A stretch of 64,000 nt of DNA, from the NCBI RefSeq assembly GCF_025698545.1, contig NC_068569.1, forward strand, positions 9,486,001-9,550,000. The letters are read 5' to 3'. The translations under genes and the position numbers were made by a program. Position 1 is the stretch's first letter, and every line of letters starts with the position of its first letter. This stretch comes from Gossypium raimondii (lineage: Eukaryota; Streptophyta; Magnoliopsida; Malvales; Malvaceae). Below are positions 13,161-59,543 of this stretch, piece by piece. Below the pieces are notes generated by a model that was not told the origin of the DNA, did not search any database, and saw only the letters and a program-made list of their open reading frames with translations.

Positions 13161-13170
13161 GATTATCTTC
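13161..13170. repeat. Left target-site duplication of the outer TIR element
   Basis: GATTATCTTC directly abuts the left TIR and matches GATAATCCTC next to the right TIR with two mismatches. A 9-bp duplication with decay is the simplest reading. Confidence 0.5.
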
Positions 13171-13488
13171 GAGTTTTTATTAAAATAATATTTAAAAAAA
13201 TATTAACATGGTATCTTTCAAAAATTATGTACTAAAGTGGTACATTTAGGATGGTGGAGGGTGGTGCATAGGCGGCACCACCCTAGTTCTAACAAAAGAA
13301 AAACAAAACTGTTTTAAAAAAAATTGACAAAATTGTTTAAAAAAAATAACTGACAAAAAGAAAAAGGTGATGGGACGGGATAGCACCGGTCACGCCTTCC
13401 CCAGAGGCGGCACCGGTTGCTGCAGATGGGTTAGAAGGCCCGTGACTTGTTTGGGGACCATTATAAGGTCCCCAATGGCCATTTTTGG

Positions 13489-14279
13489 GGGTTTTTTTCT
13501 AAAATAATATAAAATTAAAAAAATACTTATTTGGTATGTTTATAAAATTATGTACCATTTTGGTACATTTAGTATGGTGGAGGGTGGTGCATAAGCAACA
13601 CCACCCTAGTTCTGACATGATTTACACTAAAAAAATAAATTTGTTAAAAAAAATAAACTGATGAAAAAACAAAAAAAAAATGATGGGATAGCACACACCG
13701 GTTACGCCTAGGGAAAAGGCGGCACCAGTCACGCCTTCCCCATAGGCGGCACCCACTCCCCCCCACATCTGCCTTCTCTTTTTTTTTCTATATTTCTTTT
13801 TCCCTTCCCTTCCTGCCCTCTCATTCTCATTTTTCTTATTCTCTTCTTTTCTTCAATTCTTTCTCTCTTCCGGCTGGCCAAAAATGGCAATTGGGTACCA
13901 TTATATGGTCCCCAAACAAGTCACGGGCATGAAATGTCCCATCGCTGCTACAGTACCGGTGCCGCCTATGGGGAAGGCGTGATTGGTGCTGCCTCTTTCC
14001 TAGGCGTGACCGGTGCAGCCCCTTCCCTAGGCGTGACCGGTGTCGCCTCTTCCCTAGGCGTGACTGGTGTCGTGCTATCCCATCACCTGTTTTTCATTAG
14101 TTTTATTTTTTTTTCATCAGCTTTGTTTTTGTTTTAGTGTCAGAGGCGTCAGAAATAGGGTGGTGCCGCCTATGCACCACCCTCCACCACTTGAAATGTA
14201 CCATTTTGGTACATAATTTTTGTAACATGTCATTTTGATATTTTTTTTAATTTTATATTATTTTCGTAAAAAAAACCCC
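13489..14279. mobile_element. Small non-autonomous TIR element inserted into its own relative
   Basis: The ends are inverted repeats (GGGTTTTTTTC and AAAATAATATAAAATT on the left; their reverse complement on the right). They continue ~130 bp inward to the same TGGTGGAGGGTGGTGC block as the outer TIRs. An 8-bp direct repeat ATTTTTGG flanks it at 13481-13488 and 14280-14287; a ninth base would mismatch. Inside are GC-rich repeat units at both subterminal positions and a central piece (~13755-13950). That piece is an inverted copy of the very sequence into which the element inserted. It has no coding capacity beyond the minisatellite frame. Confidence 0.7.
13955..14085 (+). repeat. 27-bp GC-rich minisatellite in the TIR element family
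   Basis: Three full 27-bp units (13976-14002, 14003-14029, 14030-14056) plus partial units start GGCGTGA and contain CCGGTG. Related, shorter or inverted arrays lie at 13378-13425, 13688-13755 and 24240-24330. The unit is nine codons long, so an open frame across it reads as repeats of a GVTGAASSL-like peptide. I treat this as repeat structure and not as a proven protein. Confidence 0.75.
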
Positions 14280-14280
14280 A

Positions 14281-15765
14281 TTTTTGGCCAGCCGAAAGAG
14301 AGAAAGAAGAAGAAAATAAGAGAAGAAAAAAATGGAGAAGGAGAGGGCGGGAAGGGAAGGGAAGGGAAAAAGAAAGAAAGAAAAAAAGAGAAGCGGAATA
14401 GAGAGAGGGAAAGAGAAAGAGAAGGAAAAAAAATAAATAAAAAAAGGAAATGATGGTTTGTTGTTTAGGGAAGATTAGGTGTTTAAGAAAAGGTAATCTT
14501 TTTGTTATAAATTAATGTGAATTTAATTTTTTTGTTATTATTGTTGATTTAATTCGGATTTAATTTTTAATTTTATTTTTATAAGGTATTATTTGGTTAA
14601 AAAAGCTATTAAGGTATGTTTGTATTTATTTTATATTTTCATTCCTTCATAAATTATTTTATATCAAATAACTTGCTTCCCAAATATAAATAGAGAACAA
14701 TCTTTTTAATATATTAATTGATAATAGAAATTTTTTTAAAATGACCTAAACATCAGTCCTTTACAAAACTCATGATAATAACATAATCAATAATGGGATC
14801 CACTTACCTTAAGGTTGGCATGTCAAGCATATTATATATTATATATTATGATTACACTCATGATATAAATAAAATATAAGATAATAATATTTTAAAAATT
14901 TATATATAAATATCAAATTATACTTTGAAGGTAATATTATTGGTTTGAATCTTGTTATAAATAAATTTGTTATTGTTCTGTTAATTATTTTGCTTCTCAA
15001 AATTAAAATATTTTTAATCTTTTTAGTTGGTAGTAATTCCCAAAAATTATTCATTAGATCCCTTGACAAGCTTTCAAAAAGAAAAAGTTGGGAAACAATA
15101 TCTTGAAACCATTATTTATTAAATTAAGAGTTTTAAATTTTAAATAGATTAAACTAAAGTTGGAAAAGATTTTTATTTATTATTTTTATGTAATTTATTT
15201 GTTATGTGTGTTTTAAATTAATTAGATATATTTTTATGTGATTTATTTGGCATGTTATTTTGATTATTTTAATATTATTATTTTTATTTTTATGTAGGTA
15301 AAAGATGAGACCATTGATATGAAATTTGTGAATGAGACCATTGAGTTGGAATTTACGAGATAAATTAGGGACCATTAGCTTATATGTTCTAATTTTTTAA
15401 AATTTTATAATTGAGAATAAGAGTTTATATTTTAAATATTATTTTATGTTTTCTATAAATATTATAATTGAAATTTCTTTTGAATCCTTCCTTGTATGCA
15501 AAAAATTAATTTTTTTACAATAATTAAGTTGACATGTTATTATATATATTATATTTTAAACCAATACATTTTATTTATTATCATTTTAAAGTAATAATAA
15601 AGATATTCATATTTATTATGTTGAGATACTTATTATCATTTTATTATGCTGGTATTTTTTGTAATTAAAATAATATATAAAATTTAGGTATTTTGATAAA
15701 TATTTAAAATGCATCAAACTTTGAAATTAATAACCAAATTTTGTTTTAAAATTGCAGGTATCGCA
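14281..15765. other. Body of the outer element upstream of the PMD gene
   Basis: A purine-rich (GA) tract at 14291-14450 is followed by AT-rich sequence. A short internal duplication near 15305-15360 repeats GAGACCATTGA. I see no intact coding frame; it probably supplied promoter and 5' sequence of the PMD gene. Confidence 0.45.
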
Positions 15766-16825
15766 ATGGGTTCATTGATTAAGAATGACGGTCACATATC
15801 AAACATAGTTAATAATATGGTAATATATTGTCATTTGTTAATCACAGGTTTCCTTAAAAAAAGTTCTATGTCATTTATAGAAATAAATTATGTTATTATA
15901 ACTATTTTCTATAATTTAATTCTGTCAGGGCCTGTACCGCGCATTAAGGGGTCGGGTGAATGGTATAGGATATTCTCAGGATGAATGACTGATGCCATAC
16001 TTGGATTTAGCTGGGTTCGGGTCAGCAGTATTGATCCGGACGTTTGATATGCAGTACGATTCAATATCTGCATTGGTCGAGCGTTGGCGCCCGAAGACCC
16101 ACACTTTTCATTTACCGTGTGGGAAGTGCACTGTCACTTTGGAGGATGTTGCATTGCAACTTGGGCTCCCAATCGACGGGACTGCCGTAAAGGGCGTAAG
16201 TACGATAGCTGAGCTGACTACCCTTTGTTATGGCCTACTAGGAGTCTCGCCTAACGATGTCGAGTCCAATTTTATGAGTTTGAAATTTTCATGGCTGAAA
16301 ATAAATTTTGAACATTTATCAATTAATGTCACTGAGCATGAGGTGATGTGCACAGCTGGAGCGTACATTATGCATATTATAAGGGGTGTACGGATGCCGG
16401 ATGGGAACAACAGGGTTCATTTGATGTATTTACCACTATTAGCTGATTTGCAGAATGTTCGCTCGTATAGTTGGGGTTCCGCAGTTCTGGCTATATTGTA
16501 TCATGAGCTTTTTCAGACGACAAAGCCTGATGCCGTAGACATAGGCGGATGCCTTATATTGCTGCAGTCATGGGCTTTTTTTCGGATGTCATTCTTAGCA
16601 TCGGTTAGGCACTAAGCATACGTACTTCCACTAGTGAACAGGTGATAAAATTTAACTTGTTATAGCAATTAATTGACTTTTTTTTTTCTAATGATACTAT
16701 TCTAACAATCTAACGTGTAATTTGTTTTCGTAGATGGAGTTTTTATCCGGGAATCGAGAGGTCGTACACTATTCTGATAAATCGTTTGATGATTGAATAA
16801 CATGCCAGGGAAGGGGTAAGCTATT

Positions 16826-16830
16826 CCAAT
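16826..16830. repeat. Target-site duplication CCAAT (left) of solo LTR 1
   Basis: CCAAT directly precedes the LTR start and recurs at 20525-20529. Confidence 0.85.
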
Positions 16831-19800
16831 TGTAACAGCCCGATTTTGGGTCTAGTCGGAACAGTGGTTTTGGGACCACAAATCCGACGAGAAAAAAAAA
16901 TGTAATGGCCTGAATTTTCAAAGGTGTCGGAATGGTGATTCGAGATCACTAAATTCGACAAATGATTAGAAAATATTATTAATTTAGTGAGTATAAGTTA
17001 AATGTGAAGTTAGGAAAAATTTTGAAATAGTGAATAGTGCACTAGAAATAAATATTAAAATAATTAGAATCGAAAACGAGGTATTAAGACCTCAGAGATT
17101 TTAAACCGAGCCATAAATATTTTTATAAATATTTATGGAGTGTTAAAAAGTTAGTATTAAAGTTTCGTCAAGAAATTTTAAAGTTCCGATAATTAATTGA
17201 ACAAAAAAGACTAAATTGTAACAAATGCAAAATTATAGTAAATGATTAAATAGCTTAAATGATAAAAGGAAGAGAGTTAAAAGGAAAATAGACCCAAGGT
17301 CTATTTGGGCTGGACGGCAAAGGCAGAAATCAGGAGAATTAAGGGCAAAATTAGAATATTGCAAAATTTACTTAATAAAGTTAGGACCAAAGTGGAATTA
17401 TCTAGATTTCTCTTCATTTTTTCTGCATTCTCATCAGCTAAAACACCATGGAAAGGTTTCTTCAAGCTGGTTCTTCATATTTTTACTGCAAGTAAGTTCA
17501 ATTCTTGATCATTTCTTGAAATTTTTGTATTTTTACGACTTTTACAACTAGGCCCACTTGTTGAATTCATTAGTTTTTTATTTTATGAAAGAAGTTGAAA
17601 GTTGATATGAATATGTGCTGGAAGTATATGATGATTTAGCATGAAATTAGAGCTTTAAATTGTTCATATGCTGATTTTATTGAAAAAATTGAATAGAAAG
17701 TGAATGTTTGGGACCTAATAGTAAAAGAGTTTGAAGTTAGAGCTATATGTGGAAATTCTGAATTTCAATAGTTGTGAAATAACTTATAATGTCTAGCTAA
17801 AGTATTAACTGAGAGAATTAGATCAATTGAGGGGTTAATTGAGAAAGGACTGAATTGTATAAACTGTGAAATTTGGGGCAAAATGGAAATCAACATTTTG
17901 CACTAAAACAGTTTTGGACAGCAGCAGTAGTCTAACTTTGAAAAATCACCAAAAACTTTAGAGATTGAATTAGAGGATGAATAAAATACGAAATTAAACC
18001 TTATTGAGTTTAGTTTCTTATAAAAGAAACGGTGTAAGCAATGGAATTGTAAATCATGAGATATAATGGATTTTGTGAGACAATGTCAGAATGAATTTGG
18101 GTTCCCCTGTTCTGACTTTGGAAAATCATTAAAAATTGTACAAAAATGATTATGAGTTATAATTTATATGGTTAGAATCCTTAATGAGTCTATTTTCAGA
18201 AGAAATAAATGGAAACATTATTTGAATTCTGTACAGTGAGACAATTAATTTTTAGTGAAGAGTGGTCGGAACTATTAGACAGCAAAACAGGGGAAACTTT
18301 AAAGAATAAACTGTACTATTTTGCTAAACCAAAAATTCTGAAAATTTTATGGTAAGAATATATGTGAATCTAGTTTTGGGGAAAATTTACGGATCTTAAT
18401 TTGGAGCTCTTTAGCTCTGGATAAAAATAATTTAGTGACTCTGACTCGGATAAACAGTTTTGAATATACATGTGAGTGAATAGTGAAATTATAGTTAATG
18501 TTGTTTAAGTGTATTATACATATTAAGGATGTGGAATGGAGAGGAGGAGGAGGAAAATTGGGAAATGTATAAATGATTTGTGTATAATTGGTCATATGCT
18601 TGATTATAATTGATAAACGATAAAATAGAAATGATGCTTATATTTGTGCATTATTGGATATGGTTTAAGCTCATGTGTGCAAATAAAGTTTCATAGTACG
18701 TGTGAATAGTATATTTGATATATGATTGGGCATGAAGTAATGTCATGAATGGTTTATGAATTAACATCTGTTGGTAAATGTGGCACATTAGTAAATGTTG
18801 TGCTCATCCATGCTTATAATGCTTATGTTATATGTGTATTTGGCTAACATATTTGGTATACATGCTTAGGCTTTGGCCAAGTAATGACTGAATTATGTCA
18901 CGTTAAATTTATAAGTTATGCATTGAAATGTGATTATTGAATAGAAATTGAAATGGTTTGAATTGAATTATTGAATTAAACTGGAATATTGAAATTGGTG
19001 ATTGATATGGATTTTATTGGAATTGAAACTGAGAAAGTGGAAATTGATATGTGAGATCGACATCGAATCAATTACGAATCTTGAATATTGTTATGTATGC
19101 TGCATTGAACTGTGAAAATACTGAAATAATGAATTACTGCAATACTGTGAAACTGATTGAAATAAGAAATTATAATTGATACCGAACTAATATGGAAATT
19201 TATACTGGAAAGTGAATTGAATACCCTATTAACTAGTCGGGCTAGTCGGATATAGTTGGCATGCCATAGGTTATGGCAGAGTACGGGTATTTGTTTGCCA
19301 TCGATTAGGCACTTATGTGCCGACTCATCGTTATCATTCGATTCGGCACTTTGTGTGTCGAATCATATCAAGTATCATTATCGACTCGGCACTTTGTGTG
19401 TTGAATCTCATTATCTTTATCATATCCGACTCGGCACTTTGTGTGTCGAATCGTTATCTTATCGATCGATTCGGCACTTTGTGTGTCGAATCGTTATCAT
19501 ATCACATTCTGATTCAGACTTTGTGTGTTGAATATCATTCTCGCTACTGTTACTAATTCTTCGTATCTTGGTGTGTTTGGTTGGAATCATGTATCCGTCG
19601 AGTCCGAGTCAAGTTAATAGGGCAAATGAAATAAAGTTCTTGATAAAACTAAATCGAATGATAAAGCATATGTGAAAAGTGAAATTTGAAATAAAGAAAT
19701 AAGAATGATAGTTATATATAATTAGTTGATAATATTAAAAGATTGAATTGTTTATTAGTAGTAATAATTGTAATGAAAAGTATGTGTGTGATTTAATGTC

Positions 19801-20524
19801 GATAATGATAAATTTTATGAAATAGATTTTGATAATATAAAATGATGTAAAAATCGAAGTAAAAATGAAATAATTTGAAATAGTGAAATAATATTTGAAT
19901 TTAATTGAATACAAGTTATTGAAAAATATTTATGGATTTAGTGTATGAAGTGAGTATTTAAAGACTATAACGTAAATTGATTATAAAAAAAACAAATTGA
20001 CAATGGAAATTGATGATGGATAAATTATTAAAATGGAATGGGAAATTGAAATGAATGTGAAATAATTACTAAAAACTAATGTTGTAAGGTTTAGATATGA
20101 AATAGAATAAGTTATTGAATTGAGAATTTCATAAACGTGTTAATGAATGGTATAGTTAATAAACATTGAATTAAATGGTAATTACATATTAGTGTTAAAC
20201 TTAGTGGCATTGAATTGTACGTAAATTAAATGGAAATTTGCTAGTGATATGATTTAAATTGTGAGCATGAGAAATTGCAAATTGAATGAAATGGTAATGA
20301 AACATTGATTTGCATGAGTATGTATTGGGTCTCATAGGCTATATTTATTAAGATTATAATATTTTGAGGATATATTGTGAAAAGTTATAAAAGCATGTTA
20401 ATAATTTTGAAGTTTTTAATTTAGATGAAATTTTATAACTCGGTTAAATACATTTACAAGTGTATGTGTTCTGGTAATGCCTCGTACCCTATTTCGGTGT
20501 TGAATACGGGTAAGGGGTGTTACA
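16831..20524 (+). mobile_element. Solo LTR of a Ty3/Gypsy retrotransposon, copy 1 (3694 bp)
   Basis: Starts TGTAACAGCCCGATTTTGGG and ends GGGTGTTACA, i.e. TG...CA termini. It is flanked by a perfect 5-bp target duplication CCAAT at 16826-16830 and 20525-20529. No internal gag-pol lies between the duplications, so it is a solo LTR left by LTR-LTR recombination. It contains a hairpin repeat array (19303-19535) and a TGGCATGCCA palindrome (19256-19265). Very similar to the LTR at 24337-27784. The structure resembles long-LTR Tekay/Del (GORGE-type) elements of cotton, by memory. Confidence 0.9.
19303..19535 (+). repeat. Hairpin repeat array inside solo LTR 1
   Basis: About six units of ~40 bp. 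Most contain GATTCGGCAC, a TTTGT loop and GTGTCGAATC, which are near-perfect inverted arms. The equivalent place in solo LTR 2 (25245-25365) has three units. The array therefore varies in copy number between LTR copies and explains part of their length difference. Confidence 0.8.
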
Positions 20525-21419
20525 CCAATATTCATGACATGTAATTACTTTGTATATCTTACTCGAGTCGTATTAAATTTTAACCATTTTATTAATCGTG
20601 CATTTTATCTGGATGTCGTATCGAAGACCGAAAATTACGGCTATTATACCATCGTCTGCCCACATTCATTCTCACATGTGGTGCATTAACGCACCAATTA
20701 TCAATTTCTAGACGGTCAATTAGTACTACGAGGATCGAGTGCTCCAGCAGTTTGGTTGCATCCAGTATATCCCGGATTCCCCAATGCAGTTGGGGAAGAT
20801 TCACGAGATTAATAAGAGAGGAAAACAAGGAAATAATTGGGGGTTGTGCACTAGAAATATATTGTAGTGTGGGATAATCGGATGGCACGGAGACCTCAGA
20901 TAGATATTTCTTTTGATTTGCAACCGTCGTTAGAGTACGTACAACGGTACTCTAGTAATGGAAAACCATATTTACTTGGTAGGCAGTCGACTGTAGTCCC
21001 CCCGCACATGCATCGACTTTTGGCATACGAGCCAGTGCCCGATATAGAGGCCGAGCCAGAACATCAATCAAAGCTCGAGCCCGAGTAGTCGTATACACAT
21101 TCCGCTGATAGTTCTTATCTCCCGAAGTTACGGGTCAATGACTATTTCTCGGGCTCGTCAGGACACGGATATCATTACGGGTTTAATATCTTTAGTCCAG
21201 TACAACTATAGTACAATACTCCTCCCGACCTGTATCCACAACATTACTCCACTCCTCGTGGGTCATATCCACCGCAGTACAGCACTCCTCCCAGCTCTAG
21301 CTCATCGATGGCATTCAGAGCATATGATCTTTCTTCCATGTTTCACACACCCCCACCTGCGGCTGAAAAGGATGTTCATCGTCGCGATCACCCACAACAT
21401 GAACGTTGACCCCCGCAAT

Positions 21420-23295
21420 CACCCATTTCCATTCAAGTATCATAATCGGCTGAAGCAATCTAGAAGGTACTTGATGCTCGGCTTTTAATTGCTGGCATAT
21501 TAAACATTTCGAAACAAAGTCAGAAATGGCTCGTTTCATACTGTGCCACCAATAGTGTTGTTTCATATCGTTATACATTTTCGTGCCACCCGAATGAATA
21601 AATAATCGACTATTATGAGCTTCATTCAATATCATCTGAATTAACTCTGAATTTTTTGGAACACATAATCGGTTTCTGAATCTCAAACAATCATCAGCAT
21701 CAACTAGAAACTCTAAATCAACATTCAAGTCACAATGAGCCCGTTTTGTAATTAAATCATCTTCGGCTTTCTGAGCTTCACAAATCTGTTGAACAAATAA
21801 CGATTTTGCTTTTAACTCAGCTATTATCACACCATCATCAGACATAGCTATATGCACGTTCATTGCACGCAAAGCAAACAATAATTTTCGACTTAGAGCA
21901 TCAACAACAACATTAGCCTTTCCCGGATGATAGTCAATTACAAGCTTGTAGTCTTTTAAGATCTCTAACCATCAACGTTGTCTCAAATTCAGATCTTTCT
22001 GAGTCATCAAATATTTCTGGCTTTTGTGATCAGAATAAACATGACATCTCTCACCGAACAGATAGTGGCACTATATCTTCAATGCAAAAGTAAAAGCTGC
22101 CAATTCCAGATCGTGTGTCGGATAGTTTTTTTTCGTGCAACTTTAACTGTCTTGAGGCATAAGCTATGACTTTGCCTTCCTGCATCAAAACACAGCCCAA
22201 ACCACTCAAAGATGTATCACTATAAATGACAAATTCTTTACCCGATTCTGGCTAAACTAATACTGAAGCTTCGGTCAACAAGGCTTTCAACTGGTCGAAA
22301 CTTTTCTGGCACTTTTCTGACCACTCAAACTTAACATTTTTCTGCAATAGCTTCGTCATCGGGGTTGCAATCATAGAGAATCCTTTCACAAACCGTATGT
22401 AGTAACCAGCAAGCCCCAGAAAGCTTCAAACTTCAGAGACATTCCTCGGAGGTTTCCTATCAAATATAGCTGAAATTTTGCTCGGATCAACCCGATTACC
22501 TGATGCTGATACAACGTGGCCCAGAAAGTTGACTTCACGTAACCAAAATTCACATTTACCGAACTTAGCATACAACTGTTTATCTCGCAAAGTCTGTAAC
22601 ACCAGACTCAGATGCTCACATGCTCGGTTTCATCACGGGAGTAGATCAGAATATCATTTATGAATACTACCACAAATCGATCTAGATACTGTCTGAAGAT
22701 TTGATTCATCAAATCCATGAAAACAATAGGTACATTAGTAAGTCTGAAAGGCATAACCAAAAGCTCATAATGTTCGTACCTCGTTCGGAAAGCAATCTTT
22801 GGCACATCAGAGTCTTTAACTTGTAACTGGTAGTAGCCTGATCTCAAATCTATCTTCGAGAATACTGAAGCCCCTTTCAACTGATCAAACAGGTTATCAA
22901 TCCGTGGTAACAGATATTTATTCTTTATGGTCACCTTATTGAGTTGTCGATAATCAATACACATTTTCATAGTCCCATCTTTCTTTTTCACAAACAGAAC
23001 TGGTGCGCCCCAGGGAGAAAAACTCGGTCGTACAAAACCTCTATATGTCAACTCCTGCAACTGAGCTTTCAATTCTTTTAATTCCGCAGGTGCCATTCTA
23101 TACGGAGCTATCGATATCGAAGTCGTCCCCGGCACTAATTGAATCCCAAACTCTACCTCTCGTATTGGCGGCAAACCCGACAATTCTTCAAAAAACACAT
23201 CTGGATACTCGCTCACAACAGGTACTGATTCAACCTTTCTTTCGGTTACTTTATTAACAAGCACATATTGAAAGTAAGCTTCGCAGCCTTTTTTT
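21420..23295 (-). pseudogene. Ty3/Gypsy pol fragment (RT, RNase H, integrase zinc region), no LTRs
   Basis: Reverse reading gives the pre-RT linker ([14 protein letters not shown]), then an RT with [23 protein letters not shown] and FINDILIYS. The rest of RT and RNase H follows with frameshifts and stops (near 22600 and 22200). The integrase zinc region comes last (H...H with CLICQQLKAEH, 21480-21650). The sequence stops abruptly at EWKW, just before the integrase catalytic core, where it meets the PMD tail. The RT catalytic motif normally reads F-x-DD; here the first Asp is Asn. There is no gag, protease or LTR. It is probably a fragment captured by, or inserted in, the TIR element, and is not active. 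Confidence 0.9.
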
Positions 23296-23299
23296 TACA

Positions 23300-23880
23300 T
23301 ATTTTTGAATTCTCCTATGGGAAATTCTCTATATTAAATTCTGAATTCTCTTCAAATTCATCTTCTATAATCCAATTTGGAAATTCCTCATGATCTTCTT
23401 CCTCTTCAATCTTTATAATGGGTATTGAATTTAGAAATTTTCTTGGTAATTTCCTAACAACTAATTTATCCATCCGTGGTATGTCAAACACATTTTGCTT
23501 TCCAGTCAACTTTCATGAACCTACACTTTGTCTCGTTATTTTCCTTGCTTCATAAGAGATTATAAACTTCATGAAGTATATAACTAGATTCCAATAGGTT
23601 CGTGGTACCAATGTCTTCTAAAGTTGGTCTAAAATGATTTGATGCTTCCGTTCTATTAATGTCCCTCTAAGGGTTAAGTATTGCACTTTATTCTTTCTAA
23701 TCAATTCATGACCCTTCCATAACACTTCTTGCATCTTTTGATTTACGGTAATAAGGTGTTGAACAATGTCTTCTTCTAGTTTTATTCGTAGTCTTGCAAT
23801 TCTCTCATCATCATATCAAATTTATTGTCATTTCTAACAATATCTATAATGTAAATATTTTCAAGATTTATCTTTTTTTT
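23300..23880 (-). pseudogene. Decayed reading frame of unknown family
   Basis: On the minus strand several open pieces line up. One reads MQEVLWKGHELIRKNK then LTLRGTLIERK; another (23315-23509) is 64 aa, acidic at its C-terminal end and includes DIPRMDKLVVRKLPRKF. Stops separate them. I do not recognise the family. The pieces lie between the pol fragment and the right end of the TIR element, so they may be a remnant of the outer element's own second gene or a captured host gene. Confidence 0.35.
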
Positions 23881-24331
23881 TGTTGTTGTTGTTATCATCG
23901 ACTAACAATTAATTTATAATAGTTAATTACTAATATAAAAACTTTCAAATATATTAAAAAATTTAAAACATAACATTCACAATAAACACATAATTAATCT
24001 AAACACAAAACTTACTAACAAAACACAATAAACAAAATAACTTTAAAACAAAACATAAAAATAACACTAAACAAACTATAGAATACTAAGAAAATAATTT
24101 TTTCTTATCATCATCTATTCTATTTGAAAATAACAAAAAAACAATAATATCTTTTCTTTCTTTCTCTTTTCTTCTCTATCTCTTCTTCTGCTATTTTTTT
24201 ACTGATGCCTTAAATAGAGCCGGATGGGGTTGGGGGCAGGAGAGTGGGTGCCACCTATGGGGAAGGCGTGATCGGTGTCGCCTATGGGAGAGGCTTGACT
24301 GGTGCCGCCTCTTCCATAGGCGTGCCCAATG
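23881..24331. other. Right subterminal region of the outer TIR element
   Basis: AT-rich stretch, then a pyrimidine-rich tract (24120-24200) that mirrors the purine-rich tract near the left end, then 27-bp GC-rich units at 24240-24330. This mirror order supports assignment to the same element as 13171. Confidence 0.6.
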
Positions 24332-24336
24332 TGTGC

Positions 24337-27300
24337 TGTAACACCCCTTACCCATATCCAACACCGGAATAGGGTACGAGGCATTACCAGAACACATACA
24401 CTTGTAAACGTATTTAATCGAGTTATAAAATTTCATCTAAATTAAAACTTTCAAAATTATTAATATGCTTTTATAACTTTTCACAATATATCCTCAAAAT
24501 ATTATAATCTTAATAAATATGGCCTATGAGACCCGATACATACTCATGCAAGTCAATATTTCATTTCCATTTCACTCAATTTGCAATTTCTCATGCTTAC
24601 AATTTGAATCATATCACTAGCAATTTTCCAATTTAATTCACGTACAATTCAATGCCACTAAGTTTAACACTAATACGTAATTACCATTTAATTCAATGTT
24701 TATTGACTATACCATTCATTTCAATTTCCCATTCCATTTTAATAATTTATCCATCATCAATTTCCATTGTCAATTCGTTTTATTTATTTATTTATTTATA
24801 ATCAATTTACGTTAGAGTCTTTAAATACTCACTTCATACATTAAATCCATAAATATATTTTTCGATACCTTGTATTCAATTAAATTCAAGTATTATTTCA
24901 CTATTTCAAATTATTTCATTTTCACTTCTCATTTTACATCATTTTATATTATCAAAATCTATTTCATAAAATTTATCATTATCGACATTAAATCACACAC
25001 ATACTTTTCATTACAATTATCACTACTAATAAGCAATTCAATCTTTTAATATTATCAACTAATTATATATAACAATCATTCTTATTTCTTTATTTCAAAT
25101 TTCACTTTTCACATATGTCTTATCATTCGATTTAGTTTTATCAAGAACTTTATTTCATTTGCCCTATTAACTTGACTCGGACTCGACGGATACAGGATTC
25201 CAACCAAACACACCAAGATACGATGAATCGAAGAATAGCGAATGATGATTCGACACACAAAGTGCCGAGTCGATAAGAATAAGATAAAGATTCGACACAC
25301 AAAGTGCCGAATCGATAACGAATAAGATAACGATGAGTCGGCACATAAGTGCCTAATCGATAAGGCAAATACCCGTACTCTTCCATATCCTATGGCATGC
25401 CAACTATATCCGACTAGCCCGACTAGTTAATAGGGTATTTAATTCACTTTCCAAGATAAATTTCCATCTTAGTTCAAGATCAATTATAATTTCTTATTTC
25501 AATCGGTTTCACAAGATTGCAAGAATTCATTATTTCAGATTTTCACGTTCAATGCAAGATACATATCAATTTCCACTTTCTCGCCTCAATTCCAATAAAA
25601 TCCATATCAATCACCAATTTCAATACTCCAATTTAATTCAATAATTCAATTCAAACCATTTCAATTTCTATTCAATAATCACATTTCAATGCATAACTTA
25701 TAAATTTAACGTGACATAATTCAGCCACTACTTGGCCAAAGCCTAAGCATGTATACCAAATATGTTAGCCAAATACACATATAACATAAGCATTATAAGC
25801 ATGGATGAGCACAACATTTATTAATGTGCCACATTTACCAACAGATGTTAATTCATAAACCATTCATGACATTACTTCATGCCCAATCATATACCAATTA
25901 TATTATTCACACATACTATGAAACTTTATTTTCACACATGAGCTTAAACCATGTCCAATAATGCACAAATATAAGCATCATTTCTATTTTATCGTTTATC
26001 AATTATAATCAAGCATATGACCAATTATACACAAATCATTCATACATTTCCCAATTTTCCTCCTCCTCCTCTCCATTCCACATCCTTAATGTGTATAATA
26101 CACTTAAACAACATTAACTATAATTTCACTATTCACTCACATGTATATTCAAAACTGTTTATCCGAGTTAGAGTCACTAAATTATTTTTATCCGGAGCTA
26201 CAGAGCTCCAAATTAAGATCCGTAAATTTTCCCCGGAACTAGATTCACATATATTCTTACCATAAAATTTTTAGAATTTTTGCTTTAGCAAAATAGTACA
26301 GTTTATTCTTTAAAGTTTCCCCTGTTTCGCTGTCTGACAGTTCCGACCACTCTTCACTAAAAATTAATTATCTCACTGTACAGAATTCAGATGATGTTTC
26401 CGTTTATTTCTTCTGAAAATAGACTCATTAAGGATTCTAACCATATAAATTATAACTCATAATAGTTTTTGTACAATTTTTAATGATTTTCCAAAGTCAG
26501 AACAGGGGAACCCGAATTTATTCTGACCTTGTCTCACAAAATCCATTATATCTCATGATTTACTATTTCATTGCTTACACTGTTTCTTTTATAAGAAACT
26601 AGACTCAATAAGCTTTAATTTCATATTTTATTAATTCTCTAATTCAATCTCTACAATTTTTGGTGATTTTTCAAAGTTAGACTACTGCTGCTGTCCAAAA
26701 CTGTTTTAGTGCAAAATGTTGATTTCCATTTTTGCCCCAAATTTCACAGTTTATACAATTCAGTCCTTTCTCAATTAACCCCTCAATTGATCTAATTCTC
26801 TCAATTAATAATTTACCTAGACATTATAAGTTATTTCACAACTATTGAAATTCATAATTTCCACATATAGCTCTAACTTCAAACTCTTTTACTATTAGGT
26901 CCCAAACATTCACTTTCTATTCAATTCTTTCAATAAAATCAGCATATGAACAATTTAAAGCTCTAATTTCATGCTAAATCATCATATACTTCCAGCACAT
27001 ATTCATATCAACTTTCAACTTCTTTCATAAAATCAAAAACTAATGAATTCAACAAGTGGGCCTAGTTGTAAAAGTCATAAAAATACAAAAATTTCAAGAA
27101 ATGATCAAGAATTGAACTTACTTGCAGTAAAAATATGAAGAACCAGCTTGAAGAAACCCTTCCATGGTGTTTTAGCTTATGAGAATGCAGAAAAATGAAG
27201 AGAAATCTAGATAATTCCACTTTGGTCCTAACTTTATTAAGTAAATTTTGCAATATTCCAATTTTGCCCTTAATTCTCCTGATTTTCTGCCTTTGCCGTC

Positions 27301-27784
27301 CAGCCCAAATAGACCTTGGGTCTATTTTCCTTTTAAGCCCTCTTCCTTTTATCATTTAAGCTATTTAATCATTTCCTATAATTTTGCATTTGTTACAATT
27401 TAGTCCATTTTGTTCAATTAATTATCGGAACTTTAAAATTTCTTGACGAAACTTTAATACTAACTTTTTAACACTCCATAAATATTTTTATAAATATTTA
27501 TGGCTCGGTTTAAAATCTCTGAGGTCTCAATACCTCATTTTCGATTCTAATTATTTTAATATTTATTTCTACTGCACTATTCACTATTTCAAAATTTTTC
27601 CTAACTTCACATTTAACTTATACTCACTAAATTAATAATATTTTCTACTCATTTGTCGAATTTAGTGATTTCGAATCACCATTTCGACACCTTTGAAAAT
27701 TCAGGCTATTACATTTTTTTTTCCTTGTCGGATTTGTGGTCCCGAAACCACTGTTCCGACTAGACCCAAAATCGGGCTGTTACA
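24337..27784 (-). mobile_element. Solo LTR of the same Ty3/Gypsy family, copy 2, reversed (3448 bp)
   Basis: The + strand begins TGTAACACCCCTTACCC and ends CGGGCTGTTACA, the reverse complement of solo LTR 1's ends. A perfect 5-bp target duplication TGTGC flanks it (24332-24336 and 27785-27789). It contains no gag-pol. By eye it is about 95% identical to the LTR at 16831-20524. It inserted into the GC-rich subterminal repeat of the outer TIR element, which continues unchanged after it. Confidence 0.9.
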
Positions 27785-27834
27785 TGTGCTGTCCCATTAG
27801 TTTATTTTAATAGTTTTATTTTTTTTAAATAGTT

Positions 27835-27965
27835 TTTTTTTTGTCAGAACTAGGGTGGTGTCGCCTATGCAGCACCCTCCACCACTTGAAATGTACTATT
27901 TTGGTACATAATTTTTGAAAGATGCCATTTTGATTTTTTTAAATATTATTTTAGTAAAAAAATGC
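27835..27965. repeat. Right terminal inverted repeat of the outer element
   Basis: Reverse complement matches 13171-13310, including CATCTTTCAAAAATTATGTA-like sequence, TAGTACATTT and GGTGGAGGGTG. It lies just outside solo LTR 2. Confidence 0.75.
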
Positions 27966-27975
27966 GATAATCCTC
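27966..27975. repeat. Right target-site duplication of the outer TIR element
   Basis: GATAATCCTC follows the right TIR and is the partner of GATTATCTTC at the left end. Confidence 0.5.
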
Positions 27976-32608: not shown

Positions 32609-32648
32609 AGAGAAATAATAAGCGAGGAGACGGAAACAGGAAGCAGAA

Positions 32649-33833
32649 ATGAAAGCAAGCAGCTTAGTGGTTTTGGTAGTGTTAGCTTTGCTTTTGTTCA
32701 CCCAAATTGCAACAGAGGCCAGGTCACATTCCCACCATAGAGGACAACAACAACAACTCAGAAGAAGAAGAAGCGGCGGCGGTGGAAGAACATCTTCAAA
32801 CTGTGACCCATTGTTTCAGTTCCTGTTTGGAACCTGCGGTCAATGGCCTTTCTCAACATCTCCCTCTCCCGACAATCCTTTTCTTCCTAGAAGGCCTCCC
32901 CCTCCTTTAATATCTCCACCGTTGCCTCCGCCTTTACCACCTCCTGCTCAACCAATTGTTCAACCATCCCCTCCCCCATTACTCCCATCCCCACCACCTG
33001 TTGTCTCTGCTCCACCACCTTCATCACCACCCCCCTCCCCTCCACCTCAATCCCCACCACCACCACCTCCACCATTAGTGCCTTCACCACCACCACCATC
33101 AATCCCACCACCATCGCTAATCCCACCACCACCGCTAGTTTTTTCACCTCCTCCGCCTGATGTTATTCCCTCGCCAGTATTCCCATGGCTAAGTCCTCCA
33201 GACACCCCATCCCTTCCAGATCTCTCACCACCACCAAACGTTTTCCTTCCACCGCCAGAGGAAATTACACCCCCACAACCTGAGTTGACACCAGCACCAC
33301 CTCTAATCCCTGCATTTTCTCCACCGGCTGATGAATTTACACCAGTTCAGCCCATATTTGCTCCTCCAACCAACCCGAACTTACCACCAGGCGATGAATT
33401 TACACCAACAACGCCATTTCTGCCCATATTCGCTCCACCAACAGATGAGTTTCAACCAGCACCGCCATTTATGCCTATAGTTTTTCCACCGCCAGCACAA
33501 GATCTGCCGCCTGATGTGACTATCCCGGCACCTCTAGTCCCCATATTTTCTTCACCACCTGACCCTCCACGACTTCCATTGTTACCACCAGAACAGCCCT
33601 TTACAGATGCACCACCCATTGATTCAACTGGTCCACCAAATGTCTTTCTGCCACCACAGGTGGTTCCCACAATCCCTGAGATTCCTCAGCAGCCGCTTCC
33701 ATTTTCATCGACTCCAGCAGCACCAGATACGGGTTTCGTTGATCCAGTGCAGCCAATGTTGTCGCCTCCACAATCTTTCTTGCCACCGTTCCAGCTTCCC
33801 TCATCGTTTGATTCGCCACCTTTTAAAAATTAA
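32649..33833 (+). CDS. Secreted proline-rich (extensin-like) cell-wall protein, copy 1
   Basis: A 394-aa intronless frame starting with a clear signal peptide (MKASSLVVLVVLALLLFTQI, cleavage near ATEARS). A short basic segment with Gln and Arg runs follows. Next is a small conserved-looking Cys pair motif, CDPLFQFLFGTCGQWPF, then more than 300 residues dominated by Pro with Ser, Leu, Phe and acidic spacers (PPPP, SPPP, EFTP repeats). The protein should be secreted, hydroxylated on Pro and O-glycosylated in the wall. The CDPLFQ-LFGTCG block before the Pro region occurs, by memory, in other plant proline-rich proteins of unknown exact role. No Tyr cross-link motif (YVY) is evident. Identical to the protein at 35945-37129. 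Confidence 0.88.
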   Translation: MKASSLVVLVVLALLLFTQIATEARSHSHHRGQQQQLRRRRSGGGGRTSSNCDPLFQFLFGTCGQWPFSTSPSPDNPFLPRRPPPPLISPPLPPPLPPPAQPIVQPSPPPLLPSPPPVVSAPPPSSPPPSPPPQSPPPPPPPLVPSPPPPSIPPPSLIPPPPLVFSPPPPDVIPSPVFPWLSPPDTPSLPDLSPPPNVFLPPPEEITPPQPELTPAPPLIPAFSPPADEFTPVQPIFAPPTNPNLPPGDEFTPTTPFLPIFAPPTDEFQPAPPFMPIVFPPPAQDLPPDVTIPAPLVPIFSSPPDPPRLPLLPPEQPFTDAPPIDSTGPPNVFLPPQVVPTIPEIPQQPLPFSSTPAAPDTGFVDPVQPMLSPPQSFLPPFQLPSSFDSPPFKN

Positions 33834-35655: not shown

Positions 35656-38600
35656 AGAGAAGCACTGAAAGCGAATCTAAGGATGGCAAATTTATTAGTG
35701 GTGCAGCGTAGGCATGCATGCATGCCTGTATTTGAAACACACCCGTATTAAAATCTTGATTTCCAAATTCCAAAACAGACCATAATGTTGTGAAGTTCAA
35801 GGCGGTTTCTTTTATTGCACGCGAAAGAAAAGTCAAGTAAACCATACTTGTAATCAACACTAGTGTAAAATGACACCTCACTTTCATGCATTCTTATATA
35901 TAGAGAGAAATAATAAGCGAGGAGACGGGAAACAGGAAGCAGAAATGAAAGCAAGCAGCTTAGTGGTTTTGGTAGTGTTAGCTTTGCTTTTGTTCACCCA
36001 AATTGCAACAGAGGCCAGGTCACATTCCCACCATAGAGGACAACAACAACAACTCAGAAGAAGAAGAAGCGGCGGCGGTGGAAGAACATCTTCAAACTGT
36101 GACCCATTGTTTCAGTTCCTGTTTGGAACCTGCGGTCAATGGCCTTTCTCAACATCTCCCTCTCCCGACAATCCTTTTCTTCCTAGAAGGCCTCCCCCTC
36201 CTTTAATATCTCCACCGTTGCCTCCGCCTTTACCACCTCCTGCTCAACCAATTGTTCAACCATCCCCTCCCCCATTACTCCCATCCCCACCACCTGTTGT
36301 CTCTGCTCCACCACCTTCATCACCACCCCCCTCCCCTCCACCTCAATCCCCACCACCACCACCTCCACCATTAGTGCCTTCACCACCACCACCATCAATC
36401 CCACCACCATCGCTAATCCCACCACCACCGCTAGTTTTTTCACCTCCTCCGCCTGATGTTATTCCCTCGCCAGTATTCCCATGGCTAAGTCCTCCAGACA
36501 CCCCATCCCTTCCAGATCTCTCACCACCACCAAACGTTTTCCTTCCACCGCCAGAGGAAATTACACCCCCACAACCTGAGTTGACACCAGCACCACCTCT
36601 AATCCCTGCATTTTCTCCACCGGCTGATGAATTTACACCAGTTCAGCCCATATTTGCTCCTCCAACCAACCCGAACTTACCACCAGGCGATGAATTTACA
36701 CCAACAACGCCATTTCTGCCCATATTCGCTCCACCAACAGATGAGTTTCAACCAGCACCGCCATTTATGCCTATAGTTTTTCCACCGCCAGCACAAGATC
36801 TGCCGCCTGATGTGACTATCCCGGCACCTCTAGTCCCCATATTTTCTTCACCACCTGACCCTCCACGACTTCCATTGTTACCACCAGAACAGCCCTTTAC
36901 AGATGCACCACCCATTGATTCAACTGGTCCACCAAATGTCTTTCTGCCACCACAGGTGGTTCCCACAATCCCTGAGATTCCTCAGCAGCCGCTTCCATTT
37001 TCATCGACTCCAGCAGCACCAGATACGGGTTTCGTTGATCCAGTGCAGCCAATGTTGTCGCCTCCACAATCTTTCTTGCCACCGTTCCAGCTTCCCTCAT
37101 CGTTTGATTCGCCACCTTTTAAAAATTAAACTTCCGTCTTATATTACACGGCATTAAATATATGTTTTTAGAATAAGGAGAAGGTAGTTGATGGATGCTT
37201 TTCCCTTGTTGAAAAGTTTGACTTGTTTTTATTAGGTTTGCTTTATGCATAGTTTTTCCTGTTTCATGTATAATATTTTGTTTACGTTCAATGGATATAG
37301 CAATGCACGGAAAGTTTGATTTAAAGAAGGAAGAACATGAAATCAAGTCCAAGACCTAATAAATTGGTCTAATTTTGTTGAACTAGCTAGTTGTATATTT
37401 TATAATTCAACATTAAATTTAATTTATATATTCAGATTGATTATTTCATTGAAAAGTTCAGTTGAATGGTTTGATCTGATTTTTAATTGATAAATCATCC
37501 ATCCTTACTAGATTATTTTTAGAAAAATTGACTTGATTATTTATAGAAAATTGATGAAAATAAATTAGGTTTTAGTCAAGGTGGGAGATAATGTCTTAAG
37601 TTCTAAGTTTTATGAGCATTTATTCTAGGTTTAAAAATCATGAACTTTCTATAAAATTAAAAATTTTAACTATTTACCAACTAAGCTTATGTCATTAATT
37701 TAGTTAAGTACTTAAAAATAGTATCAATTAATTAAATTGATTTGATCTCATTGAGTCTTAGCTCATTTGACATCGAAATTGTTACTTGTACCAACTTAAT
37801 TTTTAGTGGTGTCGAAAAAGCTCATTTTTGGAGCTGAATTGCTAAATGAGATGGTTAAGTTTGAAAGTGAAAATTCATGTGTCGTTACAATAGTGATAGA
37901 TTAAATTATTTAGTAAAATTAGAATGAGTTGATTGATAATTATAGTATCGGGATTAAATTGCAAACTGACAAAAATGAATAAAAATTGAATAAAAGAATA
38001 ATGGAGGATTAATGTGACAAATAAAACATGGTGATAAAAACAATTTAACCAATGTTTTATTAGCAAAGGAGAAAAGGATTTTGGTTCTTCATGCTTTTGC
38101 CGATACAAAATTAACAATCTAGGTGAGTTTTTCCTTTCAAACTTTTGTAGATTTTGCACGTGCGAATCCTACTCTAGCCGACTCATTAATTCATTTTTAC
38201 TATTATGTAATTTAGTTTAAGATATCATTGTTGAAACTAAGGTGAAATAGAAGTTGAATATCATGGATTATAGAGAATTATGTGGGTTAGATTAAGATTT
38301 GGTAAGTTAAATAATAAAAATGTTGAACTTAGCTAGAAATTTAGTTAAAATTAATAATAGGGATCAAACTGTTAAAAAGATTATGTTATGAATTGAAAGC
38401 TTGAGGTCCTTGTATTTTATTTATTGAGTCAAATCTAAATTCAATTGGATAGATTGTGTGATATAAACGTTTCGAGTCTTAGAGGAGTAAAGGACTAAAT
38501 TGAATTAAATGCATTCATGTTTGATTTCATTGAACTATGTTGAATTACGAGATTAACGATGTGCCCGTAATTGTATTATCAAATGTAGCCAAAGATGATG

Positions 38601-58650: not shown

Positions 58651-59288
58651 TATAATTTAAATCGGTTTTATATATTCCAATATTTTTAATATAGATTCTT
58701 TAACTTTTTCAGTTTTCACTTGTAGACAAAATTGATACATAAGGGATTTATAATGAGTATTAGTGATTGTCTTTTTCATTATAGGTTATCTCTAAAAAAA
58801 TAAACGGCTGATAATAAAATTTACTTTATAGAATTAAATCCTGGTTAAAAGATTGTACTTAATTTTTGTTATAAATATATATATATATATAATATTCTTT
58901 TCTTACGTGAAATCACGTAAGCTTTGAAACCCTCAAGAGATGCCACACCCCTTGCAAAGCGTTAAACAAATAAGAGATTAGGAATTCAATTCCGTAGAGC
59001 TGCCGTAATATATATTGATTGATGCCTATTTTTACTTTACACTGTATTATATTAATCAAAATCTAGATGCTTCACTTAATGTGTAAATTACTGTTTGAGG
59101 GTCCAAACTGGAAAGCCCTATCCTAAAGCAGTGGTTCCCAGGCAGCAATAGAATGCACATGTGAAAAAGGTGGTTCATGAAGTTTGTAAATCCTAAATTC
59201 AATTCCATGTAAGACGCGTGGCTGACTGTAGTCTACCTGCCCCTCCTATTTTTTGAAAGGTAAACTCCAAACCAGCAGCAGACAATAC

Positions 59289-59543
59289 TTACCTTTCAAT
59301 TTTCACATACGTTTACACGCACCAAAGACCAAACCCATCGTTACTCGTTTTCCCTCCAATCTTCTTGGACTTCATTTACTTTCATTGAAAAATTAAGAGC
59401 AACATAACTCTAATATTACCTTTCAATTTTCACATACGTTTACACGCACCAAAGACCAAACCCATCGTTACTCGTTTTCCCTCCAATCTTCTTGGACTTC
59501 ATTTACTTTCATTGAAAAATTAAGAGCAACATAACTCTAATAT
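59289..59543. repeat. 127-bp direct tandem duplication
   Basis: The block from TTACCTTTCAATTTTCACAT to AACATAACTCTAATAT occurs twice in a row with no difference seen, so the duplication is recent or an assembly effect. It contains no coding sequence. Confidence 0.9.

Follow-up and report, generated by a model that had tools for sequence, protein, structure and literature searches.

The locus lies in a window of 64,000 nucleotides of Gossypium raimondii DNA (C5:9486001-9550000, the whole stretch that we analyzed), in which the segment from 13171 to 27965 (~14.8 kb) is a Mutator-like element (MULE) by its terminal inverted repeats (TIRs), its target-site duplication (TSD), and the plant mobile domain (PMD) that it encodes. 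The TIRs have 145-nt arms with 79% complementarity and are 87% identical across 131 columns. The flanking sequences, GATTATCTTC on the left and GATAATCCTC on the right, agree at 8 of 10 bases by reading and at 7 of 9 in the best 9-mer, and this imperfect duplication is a point against the assignment. An earlier note on this DNA had set the limits of the element at 13171 and 27965 and had described matching TIRs, a worn 9- to 10-bp duplication, a PMD gene inside, and a Mutator-like identity. All of these hold, the identity being borne out also by TSDs and by MuDR-type transposase pieces in sibling copies. The coordinates of the features are collected in Table 1. Elsewhere in the window, we also found a tandem duplicate of a proline-rich protein gene (32622-33833 and 35864-37129, ~3.3 kb apart, with near-identical translations) and two 127-bp tandem copies with 99% matches (59284-59543).

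Table 1. Features of the Mutator-like element and of the sequences inserted in it, in window coordinates
Feature	Position	Strand	Evidence
Left TSD GATTATCTTC	13161..13170		Read from sequence; 8/10 against right copy, 7/9 as 9-mer
Outer MULE, left TIR	13171..13310	+	Arm comparison; copies elsewhere in genome
TSD CATTTTTGG of small nested element, left	13480..13488		Flank comparison
Small non-autonomous member of same TIR family, in 5' subterminal region	13489..14278	+	TIRs, TSD; several siblings unbroken
TSD CATTTTTGG of small nested element, right	14279..14287		Flank comparison
PMD gene, 5' part (ORF 15989-16615, PMD model 1-189), open here	15650..16830	+	ORFs, Pfam, sibling alignment
TSD CCAAT of LTR 1, left (right copy 20525-20529)	16826..16830		Flank comparison
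LTR-type insert 1, 3694 bp, TG..CA ends, inside PMD gene, read as solo LTR	16831..20524	+	5-bp TSD, siblings
PMD gene, 3' part, stop-containing (PMD second half aligns at ~20577-20846)	20525..21417	+	Sibling alignment, tblastn
Pol fragment of a gypsy element, RT through integrase zinc finger; neither LTR nor TSD seen	21418..23296 (end approximate)	-	Pfam, sibling alignment
500-bp segment	23313..23812		Among compared sequences, here and in E4 (L012/L013) only, 91.8%
Transposase-side flank and subterminal region with GC-rich 27-bp repeats	23873..24331		Sibling alignment, motif scan
TSD TGTGC of LTR 2, left (right copy 27785-27789)	24332..24336		Flank comparison
LTR-type insert 2, 3448 bp, LTR 1 family in opposite orientation, read as solo LTR	24337..27784	-	5-bp TSD, siblings
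Outer MULE, right TIR	27832..27965	-	Arm comparison
Right TSD GATAATCCTC	27966..27975		Read from sequence

The PMD gene of the window copy matches the Pfam model at 15989-16612 with 156.7 bits against a cut-off of 34.9 (E = 1.2e-45), and the second half of the model (positions 238 to 346) was matched by Pfam in a sibling, L017. A structure prediction for this PMD exon that used no sequence other than that of the window had a mean pLDDT of 36.5, and a comparison of this exon with PDB chains returned no match at E values up to 1.

The host genome (750.8 Mb, 281 contigs) holds a family of elements with these TIRs. The first 301 bases of the element match at least 53 genomic places, a lower bound since 40 of 201 first-look candidates were scored; five of the places lie inside the window element itself, and many of the others form facing pairs. 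Around the TIR matches, we read 15 genomic stretches (L009-L023) and another 16 of 10 kb each (L024-L039), in which the ends of the elements resemble GGGTTTTTTACTAAAATAATATT by eye. At least eight of nine flanking bases are equal in 8 of 12 end pairs, compared to 2 of 132 mismatched left/right pairs used as a control, in a count that left out E2, E4, the small copy beside E4, and L024-L039. Among the poorer pairs, the window copy and E7 score 7/9, while E8 and L022 score 4 and have no TSD. The long TIRs and the 8- to 11-bp TSDs that mark the MULE superfamily are thus both present, the former in the window and in its genomic copies and the latter across the family.

The earlier note had proposed a search for intact copies that encode both a transposase and a PMD gene. 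In the copies found through their TIRs, the open reading frames of full-size elements group into common clusters on both strands, and tblastn identified 19 PMD-bearing copies (E1-E5, E7-E9, L025, L026, L028-L032, L036, L038, L039, and the window copy). In 18 of these 19, MuDR-type transposase pieces lie on the opposite strand, facing the PMD gene; all three of the pieces sought are present in 15 copies, and one or two are present in L030, L032, and L036. The window copy is the sole PMD-bearing copy in which tblastn found none of the three. Pfam scans of 40 open reading frames, many of which had no match, gave scores above cut-off for DBD_Tnp_Mut (35.4 in L011 and 33.1 in L036), MULE (43.6 in L009), SWIM (31.0 in L018), and PMD in several siblings, so that a transposase with a MuDR DNA-binding domain, a MULE domain, and a SWIM finger is found at the level of the family, though its pieces are missing from the window copy. 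The PMD frame is antisense to the transposase in all 18 copies that have both genes, and none of these 18 is free of stops in both. The two genes were thus seen together but in no copy intact in both, and the statement that the element carries a PMD gene and no visible transposase, while correct for the window copy, does not hold for the element type, since transposase pieces face the PMD gene in nearly all of its copies.

The family has long TIRs, GC-rich subterminal repeats, 9- to 10-bp TSDs, and two convergent genes. Starting near one end is the PMD gene, made up of two or more exon-like pieces; starting near the other is a transposase of the mudrA type, with a MuDR DNA-binding domain, a MULE catalytic domain, and a SWIM finger. 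The subterminal repeat is a 27-bp GC-rich sequence with a 19-base core. When we scanned 13 elements with set ends for the core, allowing up to four mismatches and leaving out five PMD-bearing siblings, all 29 matches lay no more than 700 bp from an end; two of the elements, E8 and L036, had none. There were also no matches in the 49 kb of the window outside the element or in the second family described below.

Shorter members of the family also occur. Genome copies with TIR-like ends but no PMD body had been named beforehand as counterevidence to the earlier reading, and such copies do exist, in the form of short elements (L021-L024, L033-L035, the small copy beside E4, and the small relative in the window). 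Since they stand beside full-size copies, as is expected of non-autonomous derivatives, we do not take them as a refutation. L016 has transposase-side DNA with neither a PMD nor any of the three transposase pieces, and the 10 kb fetched around L027 and around L037 contained neither genes nor a partner TIR.

Comparison with the siblings also showed how the window copy came to differ from them. Four younger insertions had been proposed inside the element; three are clean (the small relative and two LTRs), but the fourth, a gypsy pol fragment, is a replacement and not a simple insertion. The small relative has a perfect 9-bp TSD, and several siblings align without a break to a query made of its joined flanks. 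Both LTR-type inserts, which form inverted arms of 3.4 to 3.7 kb, have TG..CA ends and perfect 5-bp TSDs. Pieces of the two are 87.6 to 96.6% identical and each matches the other across most of its length, and we read them as probable solo LTRs of one family. At the LTR 1 site, eight of nine siblings (E1-E5 and E7-E9) are continuous and the ninth, E6, has no PMD gene; LTR 2 sits within the 3' subterminal repeats, where E1, E3, and E5 are continuous and the other six gave no alignment reaching both sides. Related LTR fragments are found at other positions in E4 and L028. Copy E9 has inside it an open 535-aa gypsy frame with RNase H and integrase (L020:127-1731).

The pol fragment (1.88 kb; RVT_1, E = 1.7e-19; Integrase_H2C2, E = 9e-17) showed neither an LTR nor a target duplication, and its DNA is absent from all other sequences compared. 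Homology to the siblings stops at 21417 in seven of nine and at 21413 in E9 (E6 has none) and resumes at 23313 in E4, which holds 3.2 kb with transposase in that interval. Because the fragment has no LTR or duplication and stands at the place of the siblings' transposase, we read it as a deletion with replacement, either as filler that repaired the deletion or as what a larger deletion left of an earlier gypsy insertion; under both readings, this copy has lost its transposase. A transposase remnant was considered at 23313-23870 and rejected, since tblastn returned nothing there at E < 1 and the stretch is the segment shared with E4. That 500-bp segment aligns to E4 (L013) without gaps, and its restriction to these two copies means that they may share one sub-lineage; in a tree of the PMD block, they are not paired. 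As for the order of events, the outer element did come first, but the further succession that had been read (small relative, then LTRs, then pol) does not follow, since the four inner events lie side by side and none is nested in another.

The window copy kept its ends and its PMD gene, lost its transposase interval to gypsy pol, and gained three inserts. We put the probability at roughly 0.9 that a Mutator-like DNA transposon with two genes gave rise to it and that it is now old, dead, and non-autonomous. It is an ordinary degraded relic of a design already described in plants, and the events of its history can be put in order only partly.

A tree of the 19 copies is nearly star-like, with terminal branches of 0.041 to 0.080 (0.071 for the window copy), which indicates an old burst after which the copies decayed independently. 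Within the family, the median dN/dS of PMD exon 1 was 0.68 over 36 pairs, compared to a mean of 0.85 and a 95% range of 0.48 to 1.50 in a neutral simulation, and the values for two transposase pieces were 0.48 and 0.62 (28 pairs each). None of our claims draws on the C-terminal PMD rows of E9, which look misaligned (dN of ~0.5). The ratios are near neutral and do not establish that the PMD gene was under selection.

We also found a second MULE family, in an element of ~7.1 kb nested in E5 (L014/L015, C7:49.92-49.94 Mb). Its TIRs are unlike those of the first family (GGGCAAATTACC..., 78% over 201 columns), and its 9-bp duplication agrees at 8 of 9 bases by reading. The element has a PMD gene 48% identical to that of the window copy and a convergent transposase that is 30 to 37% identical in the aligned pieces. 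Pfam scores were above cut-off for two PMD pieces (88.7 and 68.4 bits) and for the DNA-binding domain (31.6), while the MULE match stayed below it (22.7 versus 27.6) and the scan gave no SWIM match. Between the two families, PMD dN was 0.49 to 0.57 with dS saturated in all nine pairs, so that no ratio was obtained; dN of this size beside saturated dS suggests constraint on the protein. The MULE piece yielded a between-family ratio in two of eight pairs (0.32 and 0.33).

PMD sequences are widespread in this genome. A search gave at least 200 matches from the 117 scored among 6,035 loose first-look candidates, the latter figure not being a copy number. Several of the scored candidates have open frames of 500 to 670 aa, and the domain may be strongly amplified in the 750-Mb genome. 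Among the loci read, L045 and L047-L050 are 66 to 69% identical to the window PMD over short stretches, and L043, L044, and L046 are 50 to 51% identical to it and lie near the second family; the TE labels of L043-L050 in our trees were assigned purely by similarity. L040-L042 are uninterrupted PMD genes of a different type, from which the window group stands apart in the trees. L051/L053 (C7:19288670-19291200) is a PMD gene of several exons, with open frames in the parts that we read, and we take it to be MAIL-like and a candidate host silencing gene; the MAIL and PMD-B labels in the trees are likewise our presumption. IQ-TREE placed the two transposon PMD groups (TE1 and TE2) together (68/77), and in the FastTree analysis of exon 1 the window group joined the MAIL-like L051 (0.86); neither tree includes a known gypsy-borne PMD. 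An AU test of three arrangements gave values of 0.84, 0.24, and 0.13 and rejected none of them, and the trees disagree on whether there was one capture or two.

From MULE biology, a transposase acting on the TIRs would have moved the family in the old burst, with which the TSDs agree, and the short TIR-only relatives, including the nested one, would have been moved in trans, as the existence of short copies supports. More tentatively, the PMD protein may have been an accessory factor that aided escape from, or a reset of, host silencing, and by analogy its gene would hold the place of mudrB in maize MuDR or of VANC in VANDAL elements. It is quite possible, though less likely than not, that the protein served instead as a transposition helper, in targeting, in DNA joining, or as a dimer partner. 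In maize, mudrB is a second MULE gene of unknown function that is apparently needed for integration (PMC6446971), whereas MAIN and MAIL1, which are PMD proteins of the host, function in silencing (PMC5418596, PMC7156037). An anti-silencing role would be only slightly favored over that of a helper.

Where the PMD gene came from can also be explained in several ways. The genome of this eudicot has two MULE families of deep divergence, each with a PMD gene convergent to its transposase. This raises a possibility that we think rather unlikely, namely that plant MULEs have had PMD among their core genes since ancient times, and not through recent capture, so that the host silencing genes MAIN/MAIL might descend from a PMD carried by a MULE. 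We consider it very unlikely that the PMD is a host gene fragment captured passively by a non-autonomous Pack-MULE and without a role in transposition. Gene capture is known for MULEs (PMC5418596), the window copy taken alone has a PMD gene without a transposase, and the within-family dN/dS is near neutral; against this, 18 of 19 copies combine PMD and transposase pieces in one convergent layout and so have a transposase of their own, both halves of the PMD domain exist in the family, and the recurrence of the layout in a second diverged family is not explained by a one-off passenger. We give almost no weight to the arrival of the PMD with a Ty3/gypsy element of the PMD-A type whose remainder would be the pol fragment, because, although PMD-A genes are gypsy encoded (PMC5418596) and the fragment adjoins the PMD 3' end, the siblings rule it out for the window locus: 18 of them have PMD at the corresponding place, none of the other compared sequences has the fragment, and homology to their PMD gene ends just where pol starts.

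The two-gene design that we favor has its closest relatives among known plant MULEs. In maize MuDR, mudrA and mudrB are convergent, and the second gene is mudrB where the present family has a PMD gene. Both are two-gene autonomous MULE designs with long TIRs (PMC6446971 for MuDR). The same paper tabulates several groups of angiosperm MULEs, with SWIM fingers and 9- to 10-bp TSDs, in which most members have a PMD that is often antisense, and it names Gossypium raimondii in the MUDR group. Our family resembles groups 48 to 50 of that paper (MDR, MUDRAVI2, and MUDR), with PMD in most members and sometimes or often antisense to the transposase, a SWIM finger, TSDs of 9 to 10 bp where given, and TIRs of 30 to 373 bp; this likeness is one of features, and the window copy has lost its transposase. 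The PMD-C MULEs of grasses and Amborella, for which an anti-silencing role has been speculated (PMC5418596), are likewise PMD-carrying MULEs, but there PMD-C is fused to the transposase, whereas in our family, which is from a eudicot, the two are encoded on opposite strands. VANDAL elements with VANC and Kaonashi MULEs with ULP1 (described in PMC13317346; also PMC6446971) similarly have an accessory gene and short motifs in non-coding parts, and half of the VANDAL group members have PMD and/or a DUF (PMC6446971); in contrast to these, the present elements have clear long TIRs, and the 40 reading frames scanned gave no match to VANC or ULP1 and, in three PMD frames, weak sub-cut-off matches to DUF1985. 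Elsewhere, PMD is listed as a domain of unknown function (PMC8616336), and in tea, PMD and transposase genes are reported to give rise to phased small RNAs (PMC10673657). In the literature on the plant mobile domain in MULEs and cotton, covered mostly short of full texts and with Repbase outside it, we did not find this TIR family named; we take it as a further case of the known PMD-MULE design, perhaps already in Repbase.

The finding bears on how PMD genes and transposons are related, in that a PMD gene and a MULE transposase have been kept as a convergent two-gene unit in one genome, with the layout recurring in a second family that is diverged from the first. This fits poorly with the view put forward in 2017 (PMC5418596), in which PMD was captured twice, as fusions, in grasses and in Amborella, and with a statement from 2020 (PMC7156037) according to which the PMD-C of eudicots is mainly genic. 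It agrees with the 2019 table of PMC6446971. Whether the host PMD or the transposon PMD came first is made testable in cotton relatives, and the copies with a defined subterminal repeat provide material for testing an anti-silencing role of PMD.
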